The notes under the pieces: model-generated
Seen by the model: only the letters and a program-made list of their open reading frames with translations
Told to the model about the DNA's origin: nothing
The model's database searches: none
Origin: a virus
DNA: 26,387 bases
Virus record (IMG/VR): IMGVR_UViG_3300026209_000702
Location: 1-26,387 of that record
Reading direction: 5' to 3' (one strand)
Shown: positions 2,599 to 19,088 of the stretch, in pieces
Layout of the letters: every line of letters begins with the position of its first letter
Numbering within the stretch: the stretch's first letter is position 1
Made by a program: the position numbers and the translations under genes

Positions 2599-3159
2599 TT
2601 ATTTATTAATTAAATCGCCCCAAGTTGGTTGATCCTTGGTGGGTTCGACTACTTCTGGGTCTGCTTCTACTTCTTCCAACGGCGGTGCTTTTTCAACTTT
2701 CATTGGAATTTCAATGTTGTTACTTTTATTATCTGATGTTGTTGCATTATCGCCTCCAAGGTTGATATATGCTTTCTTTACTTCGTCGCCCATTGAACCA
2801 TTTAGTATACATTTCTTACTAAGTTCTGCTATATAAACATCAGATGTACCTTCAAGGGTAAATTTTGAATAATCTTCTTGGCATGGGTAATCTGTTCGTA
2901 TAGCATCGGTTACACATGAACAATGGTTCATTCCTAAGAATGGTTGTATAGGTGCTCCCCAAGAGGTTATGCTTTGTTTATTCATGGCTTTAAAACATTC
3001 ATTCACCATAAATGTTACTGGACCTGAACTCCAATTCAGGGGATACTGACATTTTTTATCCTTACCATCAGCAAGGATTGGCACCATTAAGAAACATAAT
3101 AGTGCCGTAATCCATCTAGCGACTTTTACCTGGAGGTTGTAACTTTCCTTGTTTGTCAT
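2599..3159 (-). CDS. Predicted secreted Cys-containing protein
   Basis: A 186-residue protein with a hydrophobic N-terminal segment (residues 15-30, ARWITALLCFLMVPILADG) that looks like a signal peptide or anchor. The following region has about seven cysteines (KKCQYP, NECF, HCSCV, YPCQ, KKCIL), suggesting disulfides in the periplasm. The last 40 residues are acidic and proline-rich and contain EEVEADPEV, encoded by a 27-bp exact repeat also found at 6911-6937. The gene starts 44 nt inside the HtrA-like gene, so the two are probably co-translated and may act together in the periplasm. Family unknown. Confidence 0.65.
   Translation of the reverse strand: MTNKESYNLQVKVARWITALLCFLMVPILADGKDKKCQYPLNWSSGPVTFMVNECFKAMNKQSITSWGAPIQPFLGMNHCSCVTDAIRTDYPCQEDYSKFTLEGTSDVYIAELSKKCILNGSMGDEVKKAYINLGGDNATTSDNKSNNIEIPMKVEKAPPLEEVEADPEVVEPTKDQPTWGDLINK
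2650..2676. repeat. 27-bp exact repeat, copy 1
   Basis: The 27-bp run beginning TACTTCTGGGTCTGCTTCTA is identical to 6911-6937. In both places it is read in the same frame, giving EEVEADPEV near the C-terminus of otherwise unrelated proteins. Here it lies in the acidic tail of the secreted protein. Confidence 0.85.
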
Positions 3160-4186
3160 ATAATTCGCCTGCTCGTATTTCCAATTTTCTCAACGTAACT
3201 TTAACATTTTTGTTAAGTTTATCTCTTATTATTAAGAGATTTATTGTTTCGCCTACCTTCTTTTTTCGTACAACGTTTGTTAAATCTTCTTGACGGTTGA
3301 CTGCATTTCCATCTACACCTATTATTATATCAAAGTATTGGAGACCTTCTGGCATTTCGCCTAAAGGTGCAATCAGACATCCAAAAATATTTGGAATAGT
3401 AATATTAGCCTCTTTAACTTCGGGCATCTCTTTTACTGTATCTAAATTTAATGGATTTAGATTAACTAATCGAACGCCAATGTATGCTCGTACAAATTCT
3501 TTACCTTCTTTAATAACATCAACAATTTCTTTTGCATCATCTTTACGTATCGACAATGCCATGCCTATATTTGTTTTAGGTTGTATTGGCGACGGATTAA
3601 TTATCATCGCATTAACACCAATAACCTTCCCTGCTGTATTAACTAAAGGTCCTCCTGAGTTACCATGATTTATTGCTACATCGGTTTGAAGTAATCGAAC
3701 ATAAGGTGATCTTATAATTCTTTCTGTATTACTTACAATACCTTTTGATACAGACCAAACCATGCCAAATGGATGACCTACTGCAAATACATCCATACCA
3801 TCCCATAATTCTTCTTCGGACCATTCTAAGTAAGGTAATGGTTTTTTACGTTTTGGTATGTGTATTACTGCTAAATCCGATAATGGATCTTTACCAATAA
3901 TTTCAACTTTATAAATATTCCAATCGTCTTTGTCATAAAATGCAAGTTTTAATTCATCTGCATTATGTATGCAATGATAATTGGTTACTATATGTCTTTT
4001 TTCATTAATAACAAATCCACTACACATACCAGATCCTTCTGGATTGCGTACAGAAAGGTTATTATTGCTCTTCATTAGTATAAAGACGGTAGCCGCCTTT
4101 ACACGGTCTACTATTTCTTTATTGAGACCTGCCCATGCGATTGAAGCAACACAGAGGGCAAGTGCCACTGTGGTTAGTTTTTTCAC
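3116..4186 (-). CDS. HtrA/DegP-like trypsin-type serine protease
   Basis: A 356-residue periplasmic protease. Residues 1-19 form a signal peptide (KKLTTVALALCVASIAWA). The catalytic triad is visible: His71 (VTNYHCIH), Asp104 (DPLSDLAVI) and Ser177 (NHGNSGGPL), the standard HtrA arrangement. Residues from about 235 to 335 form one PDZ-like domain (IGVRLV, then a GEMPEGLQYFDIIIGVDG loop and a VRKKKVGETINLLIIRD strand). One PDZ is fewer than the two in DegP, as in DegS. The start is GTG at 4186 with AGGAG upstream; the nearby ATG at 4190 is out of frame. It may help quality control or envelope remodelling during infection. Confidence 0.9.
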   Translation of the reverse strand: MKKLTTVALALCVASIAWAGLNKEIVDRVKAATVFILMKSNNNLSVRNPEGSGMCSGFVINEKRHIVTNYHCIHNADELKLAFYDKDDWNIYKVEIIGKDPLSDLAVIHIPKRKKPLPYLEWSEEELWDGMDVFAVGHPFGMVWSVSKGIVSNTERIIRSPYVRLLQTDVAINHGNSGGPLVNTAGKVIGVNAMIINPSPIQPKTNIGMALSIRKDDAKEIVDVIKEGKEFVRAYIGVRLVNLNPLNLDTVKEMPEVKEANITIPNIFGCLIAPLGEMPEGLQYFDIIIGVDGNAVNRQEDLTNVVRKKKVGETINLLIIRDKLNKNVKVTLRKLEIRAGELYDKQGKLQPPGKSR

Positions 4187-7382: not shown

Positions 7383-7603
7383 GATGGGAACCTCACTCCT
7401 TTTTCTTCCATTGCTTCATGAATAATATCCCTTATACCTTGTAAAGTTTCGTCAACTTCTTTAAAATCATGATTATCATATTTAATCCAATCACGGCATT
7501 GTTGATCAATATCCCATGCAATTAATGCCCAGTCCATTGCTTTAGATGCAACATTAAATTGTTCTTCATCTTCAGGTAAATTAAATGTTAGTTTTGCTTT
7601 CAT
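7379..7603 (-). CDS. Small hypothetical phage protein
   Basis: A 74-residue acidic protein: KAKLTFNLPEDEEQFNVASKAMD, then WALIAWDIDQQCRDWIKY and a helical end with EETLQ-like spacing. This style (a beta strand, LPEDxxxF, then DxxxRxWxKY) is common among small phage proteins of unknown role. ATGA overlaps on both sides place it firmly in the folE operon. Confidence 0.7.
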   Translation of the reverse strand: MKAKLTFNLPEDEEQFNVASKAMDWALIAWDIDQQCRDWIKYDNHDFKEVDETLQGIRDIIHEAMEEKGVRFPS

Positions 7604-8229
7604 GATCCACCGAACCCTTTCATGCCATTTAATAATGATAGAAACTCTTGTTTAATATGTGGGAATTCTCTAAAGTCGCCTCGCATTACCGAAGTTGTCA
7701 TATCACTTTCGTGTTCTTTAACACCTCTATGAGTTAAACACATATGTTCTGCTTTAACAATAAGTGCAATACTTTCTGCGCCTGTTTCTTCTTGTATAAC
7801 ATCTGCAATTTGAACAGTCATTTCCTCTTGTATTTGCGGTCTGCTTGCAATCCAATCTACCAGTCTATTAAACTTGCTTAATCCGATAACATTTTTTGCT
7901 GGCTTAATACCAACCCATGCATTACCAACAATTGGTTGAAAGTGATGGGCACAAGTACTTCGTATTCGTATTGGACCTGTTATATATAATTCGTCGTAAT
8001 CATTAATATTTGGAAATGCAGTTATATCTGGTTTAGGTTCGTATCTACCAGCAAAGATTTCACGTACCATCATTTTTGCTACCCGCTTTGCAGTTTCTTG
8101 AGTATTATGATCGTTTTCTGTATCTATTTTTAATGCTTCTAGAACTTTTTGAAAATGTTTTTCAACATCACGTTGCATTTTATTAAGTTCTTTATCTGTT
8201 ACACTGACTGTTTCGTTACATCTAGCCAT
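7600..8229 (-). CDS. folE: GTP cyclohydrolase I
   Basis: A 209-residue FolE (T-fold). It converts GTP to dihydroneopterin triphosphate, the first step of both folate and 7-deazaguanine synthesis. Zinc ligands are Cys93 and His96 (STCAHHFQP) and Cys164 (HMCLTHRGV); His95 and His162 match the catalytic histidines of the E. coli enzyme. GLSKFNRLVDWIASRPQIQE is the standard core. The gene overlaps the radical SAM gene by 8 nt and the next small gene by 4 nt. With QueE and a QueD-like protein nearby, supply of 7-deazaguanine is a more likely role than folate. Confidence 0.95.
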   Translation of the reverse strand: MARCNETVSVTDKELNKMQRDVEKHFQKVLEALKIDTENDHNTQETAKRVAKMMVREIFAGRYEPKPDITAFPNINDYDELYITGPIRIRSTCAHHFQPIVGNAWVGIKPAKNVIGLSKFNRLVDWIASRPQIQEEMTVQIADVIQEETGAESIALIVKAEHMCLTHRGVKEHESDMTTSVMRGDFREFPHIKQEFLSLLNGMKGFGGS

Positions 8230-9226
8230 TTATCCATTCCTTTATAGTGTTAAGTGTTTGCTCGTCTTCTATTGATTTTACAATTGGTGTACCATCGCCT
8301 TGTCGATGAGTGCCTTGTCGTGTTATTTTAAATTCTACATGCTTAACACCGAGGTTATTGCATATTTGTTTAACCTTAGGAATTTGGTGCCAATTATGCT
8401 CCCATACTAAAAAATCCCAATGGGCATATCCACCGGCATTACAATATGATGTTAAGTTATTCCAAATATTATCCCAACTAGTTCCATATCTGTAAATATG
8501 ATTTGTGTCTTCTAATCCGTCTATAGAAAATACAATTTTTAAATGAATATTAGCAATTCGTTTATAAAACTCCGGGCTTCTAAGACTTCCGTTTGTGTTA
8601 ATTTTTAAATGAAGTCTCTGACATACATATTCAATGAGCTCCTCAATATCTGGATGCATCATTGGGTCTCCTCTAGTACCACAAAATACAATAGATTTGA
8701 TACCAGGAAAATATTCAATAGCATTATCAATACATTGTTTAATTTTAATAGTTGGTGTATGAATAAGTTTAAGATCTTGACGTGCTTTTCTTGTATTATT
8801 ATCTGTGCGATTACACCCCGAACATCCTGCGTTACAATGTGAAGTAATTCCAAGTTCAAGTGATTGAAGAGACCTTTTTGTTGTTAGTAATTTGGATCGA
8901 TTCCTTTTCCCCTTTTGGTAGTCCAAATCCATGTTTTTCAACTTCGATTTACTACAATTCCTTTTACATATCCATGAACATTTTGTTTCATCATCCCAAT
9001 GTTCATAATTAAAATGTGTCGTAAATGCATCGTGATTGAATACTTCATCAAATGATTTATTTTGTAGAGAATTCCAATCTTTATCTAATACATTTAAAAA
9101 TTCATCCCGGACTGCTTTTCCTCCGCTCTCAGTTTTGTTATAGGAATTGCTAACAAACGGACACGGCCATAAACGTAAGTTCTCGTCTATTTTTACTAAG
9201 TTCCGTGTCTTGCATTCTGGGCTCAT
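8222..9226 (-). CDS. Twitch-radical SAM fusion protein
   Basis: A 334-residue protein with a reversed domain order. Residues 1-95 resemble a twitch/SPASM-type auxiliary cluster domain: DENLRLWPCPF, WNSLQNKSFDEVF, AFTTHFNYEHW and cysteines 5, 22, 83, 87 and 91. The radical SAM domain follows, with Cys131, Cys135 and Cys138 (CNAGCSGC), then FCGTRGDPMMHPDI and INTNGSLR. I recall an NCBI family of N-terminal-twitch radical SAM proteins common in phages; the substrate is unknown. Both domains have close paralogues next door (9247-9567 and 9557-10207). It is cotranscribed with folE. Confidence 0.8.
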   Translation of the reverse strand: MSPECKTRNLVKIDENLRLWPCPFVSNSYNKTESGGKAVRDEFLNVLDKDWNSLQNKSFDEVFNHDAFTTHFNYEHWDDETKCSWICKRNCSKSKLKNMDLDYQKGKRNRSKLLTTKRSLQSLELGITSHCNAGCSGCNRTDNNTRKARQDLKLIHTPTIKIKQCIDNAIEYFPGIKSIVFCGTRGDPMMHPDIEELIEYVCQRLHLKINTNGSLRSPEFYKRIANIHLKIVFSIDGLEDTNHIYRYGTSWDNIWNNLTSYCNAGGYAHWDFLVWEHNWHQIPKVKQICNNLGVKHVEFKITRQGTHRQGDGTPIVKSIEDEQTLNTIKEWING

Positions 9227-9230
9227 ATAT

Positions 9231-9259
9231 ATTATAACATCTTTCTTTACTCTTGTAAA
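9231..9259 (-). promoter_or_regulatory. Promoter of the twitch-radical SAM/folE operon
   Basis: Minus-strand TTTACA (9259-9254), 17-nt spacer, TATAAT (9236-9231). The ATG begins only 4 nt after the -10 box, so the transcript would start at or inside the start codon and be leaderless. Confidence 0.6.
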
Positions 9260-9567
9260 GATATATTTCGTGCTTCAAATGGTGCATCGGATTCTTCAGA
9301 ACAATATTCTTTACAAAGTGGCGAACATTTACTATTATTCCAATGTCTATCATTAAAATGTGTCGTAAATGCTTTATGTTTTAGAATCTCTTCTAATGTA
9401 TATGTATTTAGAGAATTCCAATCTTTTGGGAGAGAATCAACATAATCATCTCCAGTTTTCCCTTGTCCTTCGGCATTAGCAGTATCATAATAGCAACACG
9501 GCCATGCTCTTAAATTTTCGTCGACTTGAATCTCTCCTTCGTCAATTATTTGGCACTTAATACTCAA
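9247..9567 (-). CDS. Stand-alone twitch/SPASM-like Cys domain protein
   Basis: A 106-residue protein homologous to residues 1-95 of the fusion at 8222-9226. Shared features are DENLRAWPCCY, DWNSLNTYTLEEIL, AFTTHFNDRHW and the C-terminal CSPLCKEYC cluster. In related enzymes such domains bind an auxiliary iron-sulfur cluster. The start is TTG at 9567, with GGAG 7 nt upstream and an 11-nt overlap with the radical SAM gene before it. It probably works with that protein as a two-piece enzyme, in the order radical SAM then twitch. Confidence 0.7.
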   Translation of the reverse strand: MSIKCQIIDEGEIQVDENLRAWPCCYYDTANAEGQGKTGDDYVDSLPKDWNSLNTYTLEEILKHKAFTTHFNDRHWNNSKCSPLCKEYCSEESDAPFEARNISLQE

Positions 9568-10207
9568 TCATTTTCTCCACTGCTTTTTTAATATCTTTAC
9601 CAATTGGCGTACAATACGAATTGCCTAAGGATACTATTTTGAAACCAACTTCTTCAATACCAAGTTCTTTTGCTTCTTTTTTTACTCTTGGAATTTGGTG
9701 CCAGTTGTGAGACCAAACCAAAAAGTCCCAGTCTACCCAACCATCTGCTTTACAAAATGTAGTGAAGTTTTCCCATATTGCATCAAAGTCTAAACCTATT
9801 CTATACATGTGATTAGTATCTTTAAACCCATCTATTGAAAATATAATGTTACAATTAGGTCCGTGCTTTTCTGCTATACGTTTATAAAAATCAGGATTAC
9901 GAAGACTGCCGTTGGTGTTTATACCAACTTTTCGGTGAGAACAAACTGCATCTATTAGATACTCAATATCTGGATGCATCATTGGGTCGCCACGTTCGCC
10001 ACAAAATCTAATGTACTCAACGCCAGGAAAGTAATCGTTTTTTTCAAATACTTTTACTAACTTCCTGGCATTAATATGAGTTGGCGTTAACCACGGCCAT
10101 GCTTGTTGAACATCTTCATCTGTGCGAGGACAACTAGGACAGGCGGCATTGCAATATGTTGTTATACCAAAATCTATCCATTTTTTTTGTTTGTTCCAAT
10201 CAACCAT
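9557..10207 (-). CDS. Radical SAM enzyme (core domain only)
   Basis: A 216-residue radical SAM protein with Cys19, Cys23 and Cys26 (CNAACPSC), then FPGVEYIRFCGERGDPMMHP and INTNGSLRNPDFYKRI. It is clearly paralogous to the radical SAM half of 8222-9226: both share FCG-x-RGDPMMHPDI, DTNHxYR and WDFLVWxHNWHQIP. It ends without an auxiliary-cluster domain; that domain is encoded separately just downstream. I chose ATG at 10207, 1 nt after the stop of the glycosyltransferase gene; a GTG at 10225 is in frame but overlaps that gene. The substrate is unknown. Confidence 0.8.
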   Translation of the reverse strand: MVDWNKQKKWIDFGITTYCNAACPSCPRTDEDVQQAWPWLTPTHINARKLVKVFEKNDYFPGVEYIRFCGERGDPMMHPDIEYLIDAVCSHRKVGINTNGSLRNPDFYKRIAEKHGPNCNIIFSIDGFKDTNHMYRIGLDFDAIWENFTTFCKADGWVDWDFLVWSHNWHQIPRVKKEAKELGIEEVGFKIVSLGNSYCTPIGKDIKKAVEKMIEY

Positions 10208-10208
10208 G

Positions 10209-11432
10209 TTAATATTTAGGTACACTTACATTATTTCTGTACCTATTTCCGCCTCTCCAATATGGCGAACTGCTTGGCTTAGCAAACTTTGGAAGTTCAA
10301 GTACATCAACAGTTCTATCGATAGTTTTGTTTTGATAATCGCTTACTTTACCAACCCATTTGGGCGGAATATCATAACTTAGTAAATTCTCAAGTTTACT
10401 TGTTGCATCGTCTAGACTCCATGGTATATACATTTGTTCTGCATTATTTGCAAATACTTCTGGAAAAGATCTATAAGCAGGAAACAATGTCATTGCTCCG
10501 AGTGTATCTGCTTCACTAACTGTATTGCTTACCCAATCTTGTAATGCACAATTAAATAGTACTTTTGAATTTGCTAATATATCGTAATACTCGTCTTTTT
10601 TAAGATTGTCGTATATTTTTATTATACCAACTTTTTCTAATTCTTTAGCACGTTGTAAAAGTTTTGGATCATTACTACGTAATGGACCTCCACAACAAAT
10701 TGCAAACTCGGGTAATTCTGGTGGCTCCGCTTCTTCACTGTATAAGCCTTTTTCAGTAGACCATCTTTCTGCTAAGTCCATATAAAAATTTGGTTGTTTC
10801 TCTTGGTCCCAGCGAGCCGCAAATACTATTCTATTTGCTCTTTCACGCATAAAATAAGGACGAGCACCTGTTCGTAAACTTACTTCTTCTTTACCGTATG
10901 GTAAGCCAGTTACAAATGTTTCTGTTCTCCATCCTGCTATTTTAATATGTGCAACCATTTCTTCGCTTGCACAAAGAACACCATCGACAAATTCACTAAC
11001 CATTTGTTCATACTTGCTCATCCAATCATACATACCCCAAACATGTACAAAATCATCAGGATCAATTGTTTGTGCAAGACATCTTACATAAACTCTTGGT
11101 CTTAATTCGTTGGGAATTTGATTCATGATGTATGGTAATGATTCAATTCCGGGTTGGAACATATCTTCAAAAAATATTACACTATCATTGTCGACCTGAC
11201 CTTCTCGCATCATTTTAACCAAACTCATCATTTGGCTCATAGCAAAGTATGAACGCCCGTGGGCGTCTAATACTTGTCCTGTTACTATTGCTTTGGAATT
11301 ATCTAGTGTTTCACCGGGAACAATTACGTATTCAAGACTACGTTTTTTAAATACTCGTTCGTTCCAGTCTTGGAGTTGTAGGGTATACCTACCTTCATAG
11401 GGCTCGAGACCCATGTAAAATAATTTATTCAT
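10209..11432 (-). CDS. GT-B fold glycosyltransferase
   Basis: A 407-residue glycosyltransferase resembling GT4/GT1 phage enzymes. The N-terminal Rossmann half includes FFEDMFQPGIE; the C-terminal half has RIVFAARWDQEKQP, AICCGGPLRS, and SNTVSEADTLGAMTLFPAYRSFPEVF, which matches the E-x7-E-type donor-binding region. The sugar and acceptor are unknown: modified DNA bases, capsid or host glycans are all possible. The start is ATG at 11432, 7 nt after the previous stop and preceded by AAAGGC; the longer frame back to 11519 would lie inside the QueD-like gene. Confidence 0.8.
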   Translation of the reverse strand: MNKLFYMGLEPYEGRYTLQLQDWNERVFKKRSLEYVIVPGETLDNSKAIVTGQVLDAHGRSYFAMSQMMSLVKMMREGQVDNDSVIFFEDMFQPGIESLPYIMNQIPNELRPRVYVRCLAQTIDPDDFVHVWGMYDWMSKYEQMVSEFVDGVLCASEEMVAHIKIAGWRTETFVTGLPYGKEEVSLRTGARPYFMRERANRIVFAARWDQEKQPNFYMDLAERWSTEKGLYSEEAEPPELPEFAICCGGPLRSNDPKLLQRAKELEKVGIIKIYDNLKKDEYYDILANSKVLFNCALQDWVSNTVSEADTLGAMTLFPAYRSFPEVFANNAEQMYIPWSLDDATSKLENLLSYDIPPKWVGKVSDYQNKTIDRTVDVLELPKFAKPSSSPYWRGGNRYRNNVSVPKY

Positions 11433-11439
11433 AATGCCT

Positions 11440-11826
11440 TTATTTGCCTTGTACCTTGGTTGGAGAAACCTCATTGTATTCGACCCGACAGCCGTTTTCT
11501 CCATCCTCTGATACTTCAATTACTAAGTTGCGACCTGGATACTTATTTTTAATATATGCGGCCAAGTCATCTGACATCATTTCGCATGATTTATAATCGA
11601 GTTGTATAGTTCCTTCTGAATATAGTGATTCTAGTTCACGTTTAAACAAAATAAACTCTACTTCTCTATCGTCATGCCAAACCTGTAACTCTACTCTAAA
11701 ATGAAATATATGTCTGTGTTCGTTTGCGAGAAATTCTACGCCTGGTAAATCAACAGCACCCGGATACTTGTGGATGCCTTCTTTACGAAATGTTACCCAT
11801 ATGTATCGTTTGTCCATATAATACAT
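11440..11826 (-). CDS. QueD-like 6-carboxytetrahydropterin synthase homologue
   Basis: A 128-residue protein, the usual QueD length. It has a T-fold-like pattern: strand IWVTFRKEGIHKYP, then VEFLANEHRHIFHFRVELQVWHDDREVEF with the HRHIFH zinc-type motif (His37, His39, His42), KSCEMMSDDLAAYI and a final strand LVIEVSEDGENGCRVEY. QueD turns dihydroneopterin triphosphate into 6-carboxytetrahydropterin, the step between FolE and QueE. The sequence is divergent from cellular QueD, so the call leans on pattern and context. Its ATG overlaps the previous stop (TAATG). Confidence 0.6.
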   Translation of the reverse strand: MYYMDKRYIWVTFRKEGIHKYPGAVDLPGVEFLANEHRHIFHFRVELQVWHDDREVEFILFKRELESLYSEGTIQLDYKSCEMMSDDLAAYIKNKYPGRNLVIEVSEDGENGCRVEYNEVSPTKVQGK

Positions 11827-14251: not shown

Positions 14252-14388
14252 TTTGTTTGTTCCTTTTGAAATTCTGCTAGTATAACGAGAAGACGTTCAT
14301 ATTGTTTTGGTGTTAGTTTTCTTAACTTTTCAATACTTGCTCCATCGAATCCCATCTTGTACATTTCACTATGACCTATTGCTTTCAT
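14248..14388 (-). CDS. 46-residue protein coupled to the TGT-like gene
   Basis: A short ORF whose ATG overlaps the stop of the TGT-like gene by the ATGA arrangement, a strong sign of coupled translation. The sequence is soluble and basic: KAIGHSEMYKMGFDGASIEK, then KLRKLTPKQYERLL and a polar end. It looks like a helical adaptor of about two helices. No family is known to me. Its tight link suggests a role with the transglycosylase. Confidence 0.65.
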   Translation of the reverse strand: MKAIGHSEMYKMGFDGASIEKLRKLTPKQYERLLVILAEFQKEQTK

Positions 14389-15884
14389 ACTGTTTGTTCT
14401 AGTTCTTCAAGTTGATCATCATGCTCGTCAAATGCTTCGCTATCATTATCAGTACCAGCATCTTCTGTATCAAATAAATTTGTAAATGTTGTTGCTGAAC
14501 TTTTACGTAATCTACCCTTACTAAATTCAGATAAGAACGGAGTTGCTTTTTCAATTACATCCATTGGTGTTTGACTACGAAATACTTCTTTAGCAAGTTC
14601 TACAAAGTATATTACATTACGTGGAACCCAAGTGTCATACTCGTCCTGTCCTTTTTTAACTTTAGACCATTGTGTAACTGGCGGTTGGTGTAATGAGCAT
14701 GCCATATCCGCTAATGCATTTGCTCGTTGTACACTTTCAATATGTTGATACACGTTGTGTCCCATTTGTAAAAAATACGAAAAAGAGTCCCAACTTGATT
14801 TACCCTCTTTACCTAGTTTATTTAAATCTCCAGGTTTATACCAGCAAACATCGCCCATTGTCATACGTTCTGCTATTGGACTATTCCAAGGTAATGGAAT
14901 TTTACTACCACTTAATCGCTTATCGTCAATCATTTTATCCATAATATAACTATTACGATCATTTCTATGTACATGTTGTGTGTACATTTGTCCATGTGCG
15001 GTTGCAATAAACGGACTTGCACAATCATATGTAACAGTAAAATCTTCGTTAATAGTACTTCTTATTTCACGTTGTAGTGCAGTAAGAGCAACACCAAATT
15101 CTAACTTGGATGAACCTAAAAAGTGCATTAAATCACGTTCGCCCTTTTCAAGTAATTTTTCGTCACGTAAATTAATAAGCCTGCGTAATATCAATTTAAA
15201 GTCTTGCATGTTATTACCGCCCATTCCCCAACCTTCAAATGGAAGATTTTTAACTTCGTTATACCAAATATCTGCTTCTACATTATCGGAGCCTTGTAAA
15301 ACATTTAAAAATTTTGTTTGATGTTTTCGATGCTTCATGAAGAAAGCATTATTATATATTGTGCCGTCTAAACAATCTCGAAAACTATTCAATCCTGTTC
15401 TAGCATTTAATGGAGGCCTGGCGGCCCAAGTAGGTATGTCTAGTATCATTGAATAATCGGCAGTATGTTCTAACCAATTAAGTAGTTTGGTTCTAACTGT
15501 ATCAGCACTACCTTCATAAAATTTATCCCAATCAAATTTAATAATACCTTTGGCAATTTGAAAGCCACCGCTATCGCCTATTATAAGTGTATTATTTCGA
15601 TCACGTTTTTGTACCATACTTTCACTAATATCGCTTTTTGCAATATCTAGTTGAGCATGTCCTGCTGAATATAAAGCCCATTTATACTTAAAGTATCCTT
15701 TATCAGCATTTAAAAAATTCATACCTTCAATACCATTTTCAAACTCTACTGGTATTCTATCCTTAGGTACATATTCTTCGTGTTGTTGTTTGGATATAAA
15801 TGCATTATAGAAACCACTTATGCTTGGTAAAAATACTGCATAATCGTTATTAGATTCTGTTAGGTTTTGTAAGGTCTTTGTCAT
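14385..15884 (-). CDS. TGT/DpdA-like guanine transglycosylase
   Basis: A 499-residue tRNA-guanine transglycosylase superfamily protein. Core features align with bacterial TGT: Asp104 in GDSGGFQ (general acid/base), VLQG at 195-198, GWGMGGN at 219-224, and Asp287 in TYDCASP, the position of the catalytic nucleophile. It is longer than bacterial TGT (about 375) with an acidic C-terminal tail, and I see no CxCxxC zinc site. Such divergent phage enzymes (DpdA) swap guanine in DNA for 7-deazaguanines; canonical TGT acts on tRNA. With folE, queD-like and queE present, a DNA-modifying role is the leading idea. Confidence 0.8.
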   Translation of the reverse strand: MTKTLQNLTESNNDYAVFLPSISGFYNAFISKQQHEEYVPKDRIPVEFENGIEGMNFLNADKGYFKYKWALYSAGHAQLDIAKSDISESMVQKRDRNNTLIIGDSGGFQIAKGIIKFDWDKFYEGSADTVRTKLLNWLEHTADYSMILDIPTWAARPPLNARTGLNSFRDCLDGTIYNNAFFMKHRKHQTKFLNVLQGSDNVEADIWYNEVKNLPFEGWGMGGNNMQDFKLILRRLINLRDEKLLEKGERDLMHFLGSSKLEFGVALTALQREIRSTINEDFTVTYDCASPFIATAHGQMYTQHVHRNDRNSYIMDKMIDDKRLSGSKIPLPWNSPIAERMTMGDVCWYKPGDLNKLGKEGKSSWDSFSYFLQMGHNVYQHIESVQRANALADMACSLHQPPVTQWSKVKKGQDEYDTWVPRNVIYFVELAKEVFRSQTPMDVIEKATPFLSEFSKGRLRKSSATTFTNLFDTEDAGTDNDSEAFDEHDDQLEELEQTV

Positions 15885-18471: not shown

Positions 18472-18720
18472 TTATGTACCTACGATCAATAAAGCAACTA
18501 TCCAGCCTGCCATTCCGTATCGCATATCAGACCATGACCATTTATGGGGTGGGTTTTTGGAATCCCAAAATTCTTTTGCCACTGTAATAACTAAGCCTGA
18601 TATAAGCAATGGTTTCCACCATACTGCTAATGTGGTAACACTAAATGCCCAAAAGAAATGTAATTGTTGTTCTTGGTATTTGTATAGTAATTGATCTAAC
18701 TTATCTAAAAATTTTTTCAA
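18472..18720 (-). CDS. Small membrane protein
   Basis: An 82-residue protein with two hydrophobic segments (FFWAFSVTTLAVWWKPLLIS and AGWIVALLIVG) and the intervening VITVAKEFWDSKNPPHKWSWSDMRYG. The H-x-x-x-F...KE-x-x-D...SD-x-x-x-G layout recalls YfiM/DUF2279-type phage membrane proteins. It is translationally coupled to the HIT gene (ATGA). Function unknown. Confidence 0.6.
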   Translation of the reverse strand: MKKFLDKLDQLLYKYQEQQLHFFWAFSVTTLAVWWKPLLISGLVITVAKEFWDSKNPPHKWSWSDMRYGMAGWIVALLIVGT

Positions 18721-19088
18721 TAATAGCCTTTTCCGGGGATAATATGTCTAACGCCTCCTCTGGGATTTTCCATGTCCCCTTCATATCTTGGTATTAAATG
18801 CATATGCATGTGGAAAATTGTTTGTCCAGCATATGCACCAATATTTATACCAACATTCCATCCGTCGCATTCTACTGTTTCTTTATACTCATTTGCTAAC
18901 ATATGCATAAATTCTAAATCGTATTTGGTTAAATCAAACCAACTTTCTACGTGCTTGTCAGGTATAATTAATGCATGTCCTGGAGATACAGGATACTGAT
19001 CTTTTATTAAAAAGCAGGTTTGAAATTCCTTTTCAAATCCTCGTATAATTCTATCTTCGGGTAGGTTACAAAATAAACAATCGTTCAT
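18717..19088 (-). CDS. HIT-family nucleotide hydrolase
   Basis: A 123-residue HIT protein. The histidine triad HMHMHLIPR places histidines at 93, 95 and 97. The N-terminus has CLFC (Cys4, Cys7), which in many HIT proteins binds zinc with a later histidine, and PGHALIIPDKHVESW is the standard beta region. HIT enzymes hydrolyse or transfer nucleotide monophosphates (AMP-lysine, Ap4A-type substrates). It overlaps its neighbours by 4 nt. A role in nucleotide salvage or in clearing nucleotide conjugates is plausible. Confidence 0.92.
   Translation of the reverse strand: MNDCLFCNLPEDRIIRGFEKEFQTCFLIKDQYPVSPGHALIIPDKHVESWFDLTKYDLEFMHMLANEYKETVECDGWNVGINIGAYAGQTIFHMHMHLIPRYEGDMENPRGGVRHIIPGKGYY

Follow-up and report, generated by a model that had tools for sequence, protein, structure and literature searches.

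The window analysed here is the whole of a 26-kb viral record of IMG/VR (IMGVR_UViG_3300026209_000702, 26,387 nucleotides) and carries on its minus strand three adjacent genes formed from two kinds of domain, the radical S-adenosylmethionine (SAM) core, hereafter rSAM, and the Cys-rich twitch domain. The first gene encodes a stand-alone rSAM core (R1), the second a stand-alone twitch subunit (T1) and the third a single chain, T2-R2, in which a twitch (T2) is followed by an rSAM core (R2). The features are collected in Table 1. As the initial annotation had it, the three open reading frames (ORFs) are open and their order along the transcript is rSAM, twitch, twitch-rSAM; one twitch is a separate gene started by TTG and the other precedes the rSAM domain within one protein. 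In neither case does the twitch lie C-terminal to the rSAM core of the same chain. The ATG of R1 is also used by the orthologue in the related contig L006 (loci outside the window are numbered with the prefix L), and an alternative GTG lies 18 nt upstream, at 10225.

Table 1. Features of the rSAM/twitch locus and its direct neighbours in the window.
Feature	Position	Strand	Evidence and remarks
R1, stand-alone rSAM core, 216 aa, CX3CX2C cluster motif	9557..10207	-	PF04055, 45.6 bits
T1, stand-alone twitch subunit, 106 aa, TTG start, conserved Cys 5, 24, 85 and 89	9247..9567	-	
GGAG, Shine-Dalgarno-like site, 7 nt before the T1 TTG	9575..9578	-	GGAG...TTG also in L006
Overlap of R1 stop and T1 start, 11 nt	9557..9567	-	Sequence
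T2-R2, twitch-first one-chain protein, 334 aa	8222..9226	-	Open reading frame
T2, twitch domain, N terminus of T2-R2, conserved Cys 5, 22, 87 and 91	8951..9226	-	47% identity to T1; invariant alignment columns
Low-confidence linker between T2 and R2	8867..8950	-	Predicted local distance difference test (pLDDT) 54-56 in the blocks of residues 91-120
R2, rSAM core, C terminus of T2-R2, stop included	8222..8866	-	PF04055, 44.0 bits, residues 127-272
folE (GTP cyclohydrolase I), start overlaps R2 stop by 8 nt	7600..8229	-	PF01227, E 7.5e-50; same neighbour in L006
Putative glycosyltransferase-like protein, directly upstream of R1	10209..11519	-	PF13524, E 0.026, below cut-off; same neighbour in L006

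The domains are homologous in pairs far beyond chance, as had been proposed. In pairwise comparison R2 is 52% identical to R1 over 199 aa (E 1.2e-66) and for T2 against T1 the identity is 47% (E 4.1e-22), so that by sequence the relatedness of the two Cys-rich domains stands. R1 and R2 belong to the radical SAM superfamily as judged from the CX3CX2C motif and from PF04055 matches above the cut-off of 29.5 bits; the motif was identified in 88 of 88 rSAM rows, and C19, C23 and C26 of R1 are invariant in the rSAM alignment (A3). More specific families were matched only far below their cut-offs: TIGR04317, the tungsten oxidoreductase rSAM maturase, with 56.6 bits for T2-R2 and 48.0 for R1 (cut-off 380), and TIGR04466 with 35.9 and 35.2 bits for the two R domains (cut-off 400). 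T1 alone matched no library model beyond chance, the best values being E 0.042 in Pfam and E 0.14 in PHROGs, with none in NCBIfam. Among the INPHARED phages no match was found for T2-R2 at 1e-5 nor for T1 at 0.01. An rSAM protein of the split type (L116) matches three Campylobacter phage records there at about 24%, and a fused relative (L036) additionally finds the pelagiphage Mosig. Sequences of the window and of L006 are seeds of the rSAM and twitch profiles used below, and their own scores with these profiles are no independent evidence.

The same trio was identified in four other contigs. In two of them (L004 and L005) R1 and T2-R2 are 100% identical to those of the window and lie in the same R, T, T-R layout; the other two, L006 among them, hold diverged copies. 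The R1 orthologue (L006:5325-5975) is 93% identical, with 0.036 nonsynonymous (dN) and 0.487 synonymous (dS) substitutions per site, and the T1 orthologue is 89% identical at the amino acid level (dN 0.056, dS 0.528). T2-R2 changes faster than R1 and T1 (dN 0.164, dS 0.450), and its orthologue is 26 residues shorter overall (308 against 334 aa). In this one genome pair dN is well below dS for all three genes. A sequencing artefact or a pseudogene is rejected, since the trio recurs in L006 and its dN values there are far lower than dS.

A second doubt about T1 is that programmed frameshifting might yield R1 and T1 as a single protein, with ORFs that are separate in appearance only. The two ORFs overlap by 11 nt, and fused relatives do hold R and T in one chain. 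Across 27 pair rows (near-copies included), however, the first candidate T start (ATG, GTG or TTG) can be placed as far as 26 nt within R or up to 13 nt past its end, with T in one or the other of the two remaining frames; since position and frame vary, there is no single conserved shift signal. Several T starts, the window's included, are preceded by GGAG-like sites. The T1 frame is closed by a TGA directly before the TTG and opens only there, and TTG is likewise the sole candidate start of the L006 orthologue. Judged from these sequences, separate initiation of T is the better reading and frameshifting is very unlikely. Reading R1 and T1 as a single chain for structure prediction, by a four-letter code, was considered as well and dropped, all the words that could join the frames recurring elsewhere in frame.

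The assignment of the Cys-rich domain to the twitch type is based on its cysteines and on structure models. The twitch/SPASM motif is given in a passage of PMC6231123 as CX9-15GX4C, followed by further Cys for one auxiliary cluster. All four Cys were present in 61 of the 61 family rows with letters at all four positions, the third and fourth always spaced as CX3C (76 of 76 rows), and the GX4C element, a Gly five residues before the second Cys, was identified in 65 of 85 rows. In the T1 alignment C24, C85 and C89 are invariant and C5 is present in at least 90%. The model of the fused relative L036 (pLDDT 94, predicted template modelling score, pTM, 0.92) aligned over both domains with SuiB (Z 19.6, 272 residues), SkfB (Z 19.1, 249 residues), BlsE (Z 18.4, 264 residues) and BtrN (Z 16.3, 224 residues), and also with MoaA and anSME (Z 16-20 across the set); the span was residues 1-356 with SuiB and 1-364 with BtrN. 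For the whole-chain model of T2-R2 (pLDDT 90, pTM 0.87), alignment with SuiB (5v1s), SkfB and BlsE does not begin before residue 118 (VIA matches, residues 118-334), as expected if the order is permuted and the aligner is sequential. Neither the VIA-align nor the Foldseek comparison excludes families other than those named.

Some observations weigh against this assignment. In the window lineage Leu replaces the Gly of GX4C, T1 reading CX13LX4C and T2 CX11LX4C. The sequence link to SPASM domains is weak: among solved SPASM domains the twitch profile reached E 0.078 (anSME), and the Pfam SPASM model was matched in L164 at E 0.0013, below its cut-off. Finally, unlike those with SuiB, SkfB and BlsE, the alignments of the T2-R2 model with NifB, RlmN and GDGT-MAS start within residues 1-59.

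The distribution of the two architectures was surveyed by running the rSAM and twitch profiles over loci from seven scans of viral contigs, one genome scan and three stretches of the L006 record. The viral alignment scans contributed at most the best 80 each of 448, 412, 493 and 169 relatives, and the census therefore leans towards the clades of the queries. Near-copies by identity were dropped before counting, as were rSAM hits weaker than E 1e-40 (census) or 1e-44 (88-row tree below). The 447 rSAM hits, repeat retrievals included, gave 136 rows after dereplication at 90% identity, nearly all of them viral. A separate twitch ORF follows the rSAM gene in 66 rows, and in 60 the twitch is at the C terminus of the same ORF, the ordinary fusion. 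Three rows belong to nested R-R-T-T sets (L031, L174 and L271), one lies at a contig end and in four no twitch was found, although for three of these (L029, L054 and L087) another profile run weakly matched a twitch within the rSAM ORF itself. The permuted order, twitch before rSAM, was identified in only two rows, the window and L006. Bacterial rows are few (L102, L103 and L106); the genome contigs contributed five loci, two of which are fused genes from metagenome-assembled genomes of Bdellovibrionales.

The large scans used the rSAM sequence only, and the loci from twitch-containing queries sat on contigs that the rSAM scans also found; the constant company of a twitch is therefore a result and not an input. 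Split pairs are also arranged in arrays of two (L008, L118 and L171) or three (L025 and L100/L101). In the nested set of L031 the outer two genes, the first rSAM and the final twitch, cluster with the same relatives (L008 and L074), as would follow if one pair had been inserted into another. The exact trio was found only in the window lineage, its 26 places being repeat retrievals of the four contigs and the window. Thus the trio itself, proposed as something to be sought in other phages, was not met outside this lineage, whereas split pairs and their arrays are common in viral contigs.

The trees place ordinary fused and separate-gene rSAM/twitch enzymes on two sides of one tree; the separate genes overlap one another in most cases. 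On the 109 labelled rSAM rows the split or fused state changes only once, at a node with 98 in the Shimodaira-Hasegawa-like approximate likelihood ratio test (SH-aLRT), while shuffling of the labels over the same rows gave a mean of 33.5 changes and 0 of 500 shuffles as low as 1. The split side has a support of 98/99 in the careful 88-row tree. A tree rooted on the rSAM proteins of Campylobacter phage CP220 gathers the split rows in a single clade (SH-aLRT 99), which leaves a multi-way fork together with several fused groups; this tree and the 109-row tree leave out L104-L106. Because the split rows are a single clade when the root is set on the fused-looking CP220 proteins, the fused gene is favoured as the older state and its fission as the direction of change. 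Within this sample the ordinary rSAM-twitch gene probably underwent a single fission.

R2 is sister to R1 or to its L006 orthologue, with 100/95 in the 88-row tree and 97 in the CP220-rooted tree. R was thus probably duplicated after the split, in the window lineage, and only then would a twitch have been fused before R2. After the fission, pairs would have been copied into arrays, and in the window lineage R would have been duplicated and one twitch re-fused in permuted order. The simplest path would lead from a split pair through its duplication to the joining of a twitch to the rSAM that follows it, with loss of the other partners. The twitch A gene of L008 overlaps the rSAM B gene by up to 25 nt, and such a joining would therefore be a short step. 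By sequence comparison, the domain order of T2-R2 is that of a circularly permuted ancestral enzyme. According to a passage of PMC6231123, the chain of SkfB wraps back so that its first twitch strand lies beside strand 1 of the rSAM barrel; by analogy the permutation looks geometrically easy, and a twitch tethered at either end would be plausible.

The initial annotation had proposed a duplication followed by splitting or shuffling. Both processes can be recognised in the trees but not in that order, the split being old and clade-wide, the duplication of R later and the re-fusion of the twitch after it. Of the domain phylogeny, the sisterhood of R1 and R2 was recovered and that of T1 and T2 not clearly so: one twitch tree joins them by a weak fork (89/28), and in a larger one placing T1 and T2 together costs at least 4.26 log units (p value of the approximately unbiased test, p-AU, 0.379). 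As this sisterhood lacks clear support, an origin of T2 from another unit than T1 is conceivable, and T2 may have been acquired in this way. This counts against the history preferred here, as do two further points. The rooting depends on CP220 proteins that look fused by eye (GX4C and later Cys after the rSAM core), and the twitch profile gave no hit on them. A split pair in Mosig sits apart from the split clade at the end of a very long branch, and with it two changes are needed; it is possibly a second fission or a misplacement. That pair, in the cultured Pelagibacter phage Mosig EXVC030M (L356:2956-3922), is annotated as a putative molybdenum cofactor biosynthesis enzyme and a hypothetical protein. 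The rSAM core of the first (Mosig_00084) is found at E 3e-30; the second (Mosig_00085) is twitch-like, with GX4C and CX3C, at a weak profile value of only E 0.022.

The twitch-first order could instead have been inherited, T2-R2 being a member of the N-terminal-twitch family NF033640 of NCBIfam and unrelated in origin to R1/T1. NF033640 shares the domain order, and no NCBIfam model scores higher with T2-R2 (60.9 bits, E 1.1e-16) or with its orthologue (60.2 bits). Similar-looking genes (cluster c2, with an N-terminal C...G..PCC recognised by eye) lie near split pairs in L008, L009, L149, L170 and L171, and their N-terminal stretch has a weak profile-profile likeness to the twitch family (E 1e-4, probability 58). 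The score of T2-R2 is, however, far below the curated cut-off of 170 bits. R1 also matches, with 47.6 bits, and since it has no twitch much of the match must come from the rSAM core. The position of R2 as sister to R1 inside the split clade (in trees without NF033640 members) and the likeness of T2 to T1 also speak against a separate origin, which is considered highly improbable. Re-fusion within the split clade remains the preferred reading.

With regard to function, a two-component enzyme formed by R1 and T1, accompanied by a permuted one-chain paralogue, is a likely arrangement; this applies to the architecture and not to the substrate. The enzyme is most likely of the BtrN type. The rSAM core carries the radical-forming cluster, and in BtrN-like enzymes the auxiliary cluster is the likely electron acceptor, according to passages of PMC9012708. 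R1 and T1 would assemble as two subunits, R1 binding a [4Fe-4S] cluster and SAM and making the 5'-deoxyadenosyl radical, and T1 holding one auxiliary [4Fe-4S] cluster through its four Cys and taking the electron from the substrate radical, as proposed for BtrN. T2-R2 would carry out the same chemistry in one chain. Electron passage between rSAM proteins is reported for PapB and QueE in excerpts of PMC10470005, and on that analogy and standard rSAM chemistry R1 and T1 are expected to form one enzyme. On the other side, it is the conserved pairing of the genes alone that suggests binding of T1 to R1. That R1/T1 and T2-R2 catalyse two related putative reactions on similar substrates, as first suggested, is plausible. 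It is rather unlikely that the twitch is a free, exchangeable electron-transfer subunit, several stand-alone twitches serving several rSAM cores within one cell, as the three-pair arrays and the nested R-R-T-T sets might allow, and T2-R2 pairing with R1/T1 or passing electrons to it; if true, a virus could assemble many combinations of radical enzyme out of a small stock of parts.

Several known systems come close to the trio. BtrN (2-deoxy-scyllo-inosamine dehydrogenase, 4m7t) has an rSAM barrel and a four-Cys twitch with one auxiliary cluster, as predicted here, but in one chain with the rSAM first. BlsE (cytosylglucuronate decarboxylase, 7vob), likewise one chain, is the top Foldseek match of both the L036 and the T2-R2 models and is linked to both R domains through TIGR04466; the likeness is one of modelled fold and of profile. 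AprD4/AprD3, a radical SAM dehydratase with a separate NADPH-dependent reductase (in part described in PMC5461906), may be a parallel to those relatives with a dehydrogenase-like domain after the twitch, a domain that the window trio lacks. This domain, of the short-chain dehydrogenase type, was identified in 5 of the 6 long fused ORFs tested (L044, L020, L053, L162 and L178), of which L162 alone exceeds the Pfam cut-off, and by just 0.1 bit; the sixth, L046, belongs to that length class but yielded nothing of the kind. Two split-clade proteins (L119:4326-5711 and L136:4326-5663) have a 2-oxoglutarate-Fe(II) oxygenase domain before the rSAM core (PF13640, E 1.1e-4 and 1.3e-3, below cut-off).

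The enzyme might oxidise or epimerise a sugar-like substrate destined for glycans of the virus or of the host surface, but this is a guess of doubtful standing. BlsE, the top match, is a sugar-nucleotide enzyme. The dehydrogenase-like domains fused after the twitch and the weakly matched oxygenase domain before the rSAM core, both in relatives, are further hints of this kind. Genes for a UDP-glucose dehydrogenase, a ribulose-phosphate epimerase and SIS proteins lie about 60 kb from the trio on the L006 contig. Sugar-nucleotide genes are annotated near the rSAM genes of Mosig and CP220, that of Mosig being annotated as a UDP-4-amino-4-deoxy-L-arabinose aminotransferase two genes after the split pair. 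The hypervariable region of pelagimyophages contains rSAM cassettes and many lipopolysaccharide-related genes, as stated in a passage of PMC7029224. The sugar reading is weak because SuiB and SkfB act on peptides and because the NCBIfam profiles nearest to the fused relatives are maturases (TIGR04317), although far below cut-off. The glycosyltransferase assignment beside R1 is also weakened, that protein having no PDB sequence match at E <= 0.1.

The same matches, SuiB and SkfB among the top solved structures and the cofactor-enzyme maturase TIGR04317 among the best NCBIfam profiles, would fit split enzymes that modify peptides or proteins, as in cofactor maturation or the chemistry of ribosomally synthesised and post-translationally modified peptides. 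No precursor peptide was noticed among the neighbour genes listed, for which no dedicated search was made; BlsE as the top match and the fused dehydrogenase-like domains of relatives fit small molecules better. A peptide substrate is thus held to be tentative, to the same degree as a sugar.

Neighbour genes were clustered for 39 split and 30 fused loci; the clusters consist of core genes of viruses, further rSAM genes and a few hydrolases of lipase- or SGNH-like type. Besides rSAM and twitch no neighbour cluster was present in more than 14 of the 39 split loci, which also counts against the sugar reading. Pfam runs on 20 chosen proteins left five window neighbours without a usable hit. Beside the trio, folE is a neighbour whose membership in the system is only putative. 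A queE-like gene lies 2 kb on (NCBIfam QueE models, below cut-off) and on a related 99-kb contig QueC is matched over only 57 of 210 positions (22.9 bits versus 22). The gene at 14385-15884 has a DSGGFQ motif, which we take to be of the tRNA-guanine transglycosylase type and perhaps that of DpdA; this DpdA-like label comes from the motif alone, the protein having no Pfam, PHROG or PDB sequence match. It is 35% identical to products annotated as hypothetical in Pseudomonas phage PA5oct and relatives, in at least 8 of 13 matching records. Taken with folE and the queE-like gene, it may point to a viral DNA that contains 7-deazaguanine.

The trio could accordingly be part of a viral 7-deazaguanine DNA-modification set (folE, queE-like and DpdA-like) and alter the modified base, folE overlapping the R2 stop. 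Neither folE nor queE was, however, recognised by eye beside L008 and L009 (where no library search was made), the split clade has no common neighbour, and phage genes are so packed that adjacency is weak evidence. Membership of the trio in such a set is a minor prospect, and an R1/T1 enzyme with its paralogue is kept as the description of the locus.

Other genes of the window include a putative HtrA-like serine protease at 3116-4186, recognised by eye, and at 18717-19088 a protein that, by eye and from its HMHMH motif, is presumably a HIT-family hydrolase. A small IscU-like protein, also by eye, lies near the split pair in L129 (1-222, minus strand) and in four other split loci (neighbour cluster 22); a viral IscU is reported in an excerpt of PMC5332604.

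Several carriers are rich in rSAM genes. Matches to PF04055 (E <= 1e-3) numbered 16 in 98.8 kb of L006, 20 in 91 kb of L171, 15 in 58.8 kb of L130, 18 in 85.8 kb of L173, 13 in 98.6 kb of L031 and 22 in 328 kb of L051; these belong to a biased sample of 13 records chosen by hand among carriers, the other seven having 2 to 7 matches. Marine T4-like viruses have many rSAM genes too, 12 in one 183-kb genome (PMC5332604, in part), and the passages on them in that source and in PMC7029224 do not describe a split or permuted twitch. The DNA polymerase of the window, in contrast, most resembles the enzymes of very large phages, namely Sinorhizobium phage Phosso (50%) and Agrobacterium phage Atu_ph07 (47%).

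What auxiliary clusters do in radical SAM enzymes is called largely enigmatic in an excerpt of PMC10470005, and these clusters are described in C-terminal extensions of the catalytic chain in passages of that source and of PMC9012708. Among the matches listed in the open-access literature on rSAM, twitch, SPASM and gene fission, with few subscription papers, no separate or permuted twitch was found. The separate and the permuted twitch are well supported as a finding on gene architecture, their function being hypothetical. T2-R2 beside the split pair looks like a natural circular permutation through fission, duplication and re-fusion, with intermediate gene orders surviving in relatives. With the twitch as a separate gene, the auxiliary-cluster domain can be added, omitted or swapped directly, and the split and joined copies side by side are a natural test of whether a twitch works as a separate protein.

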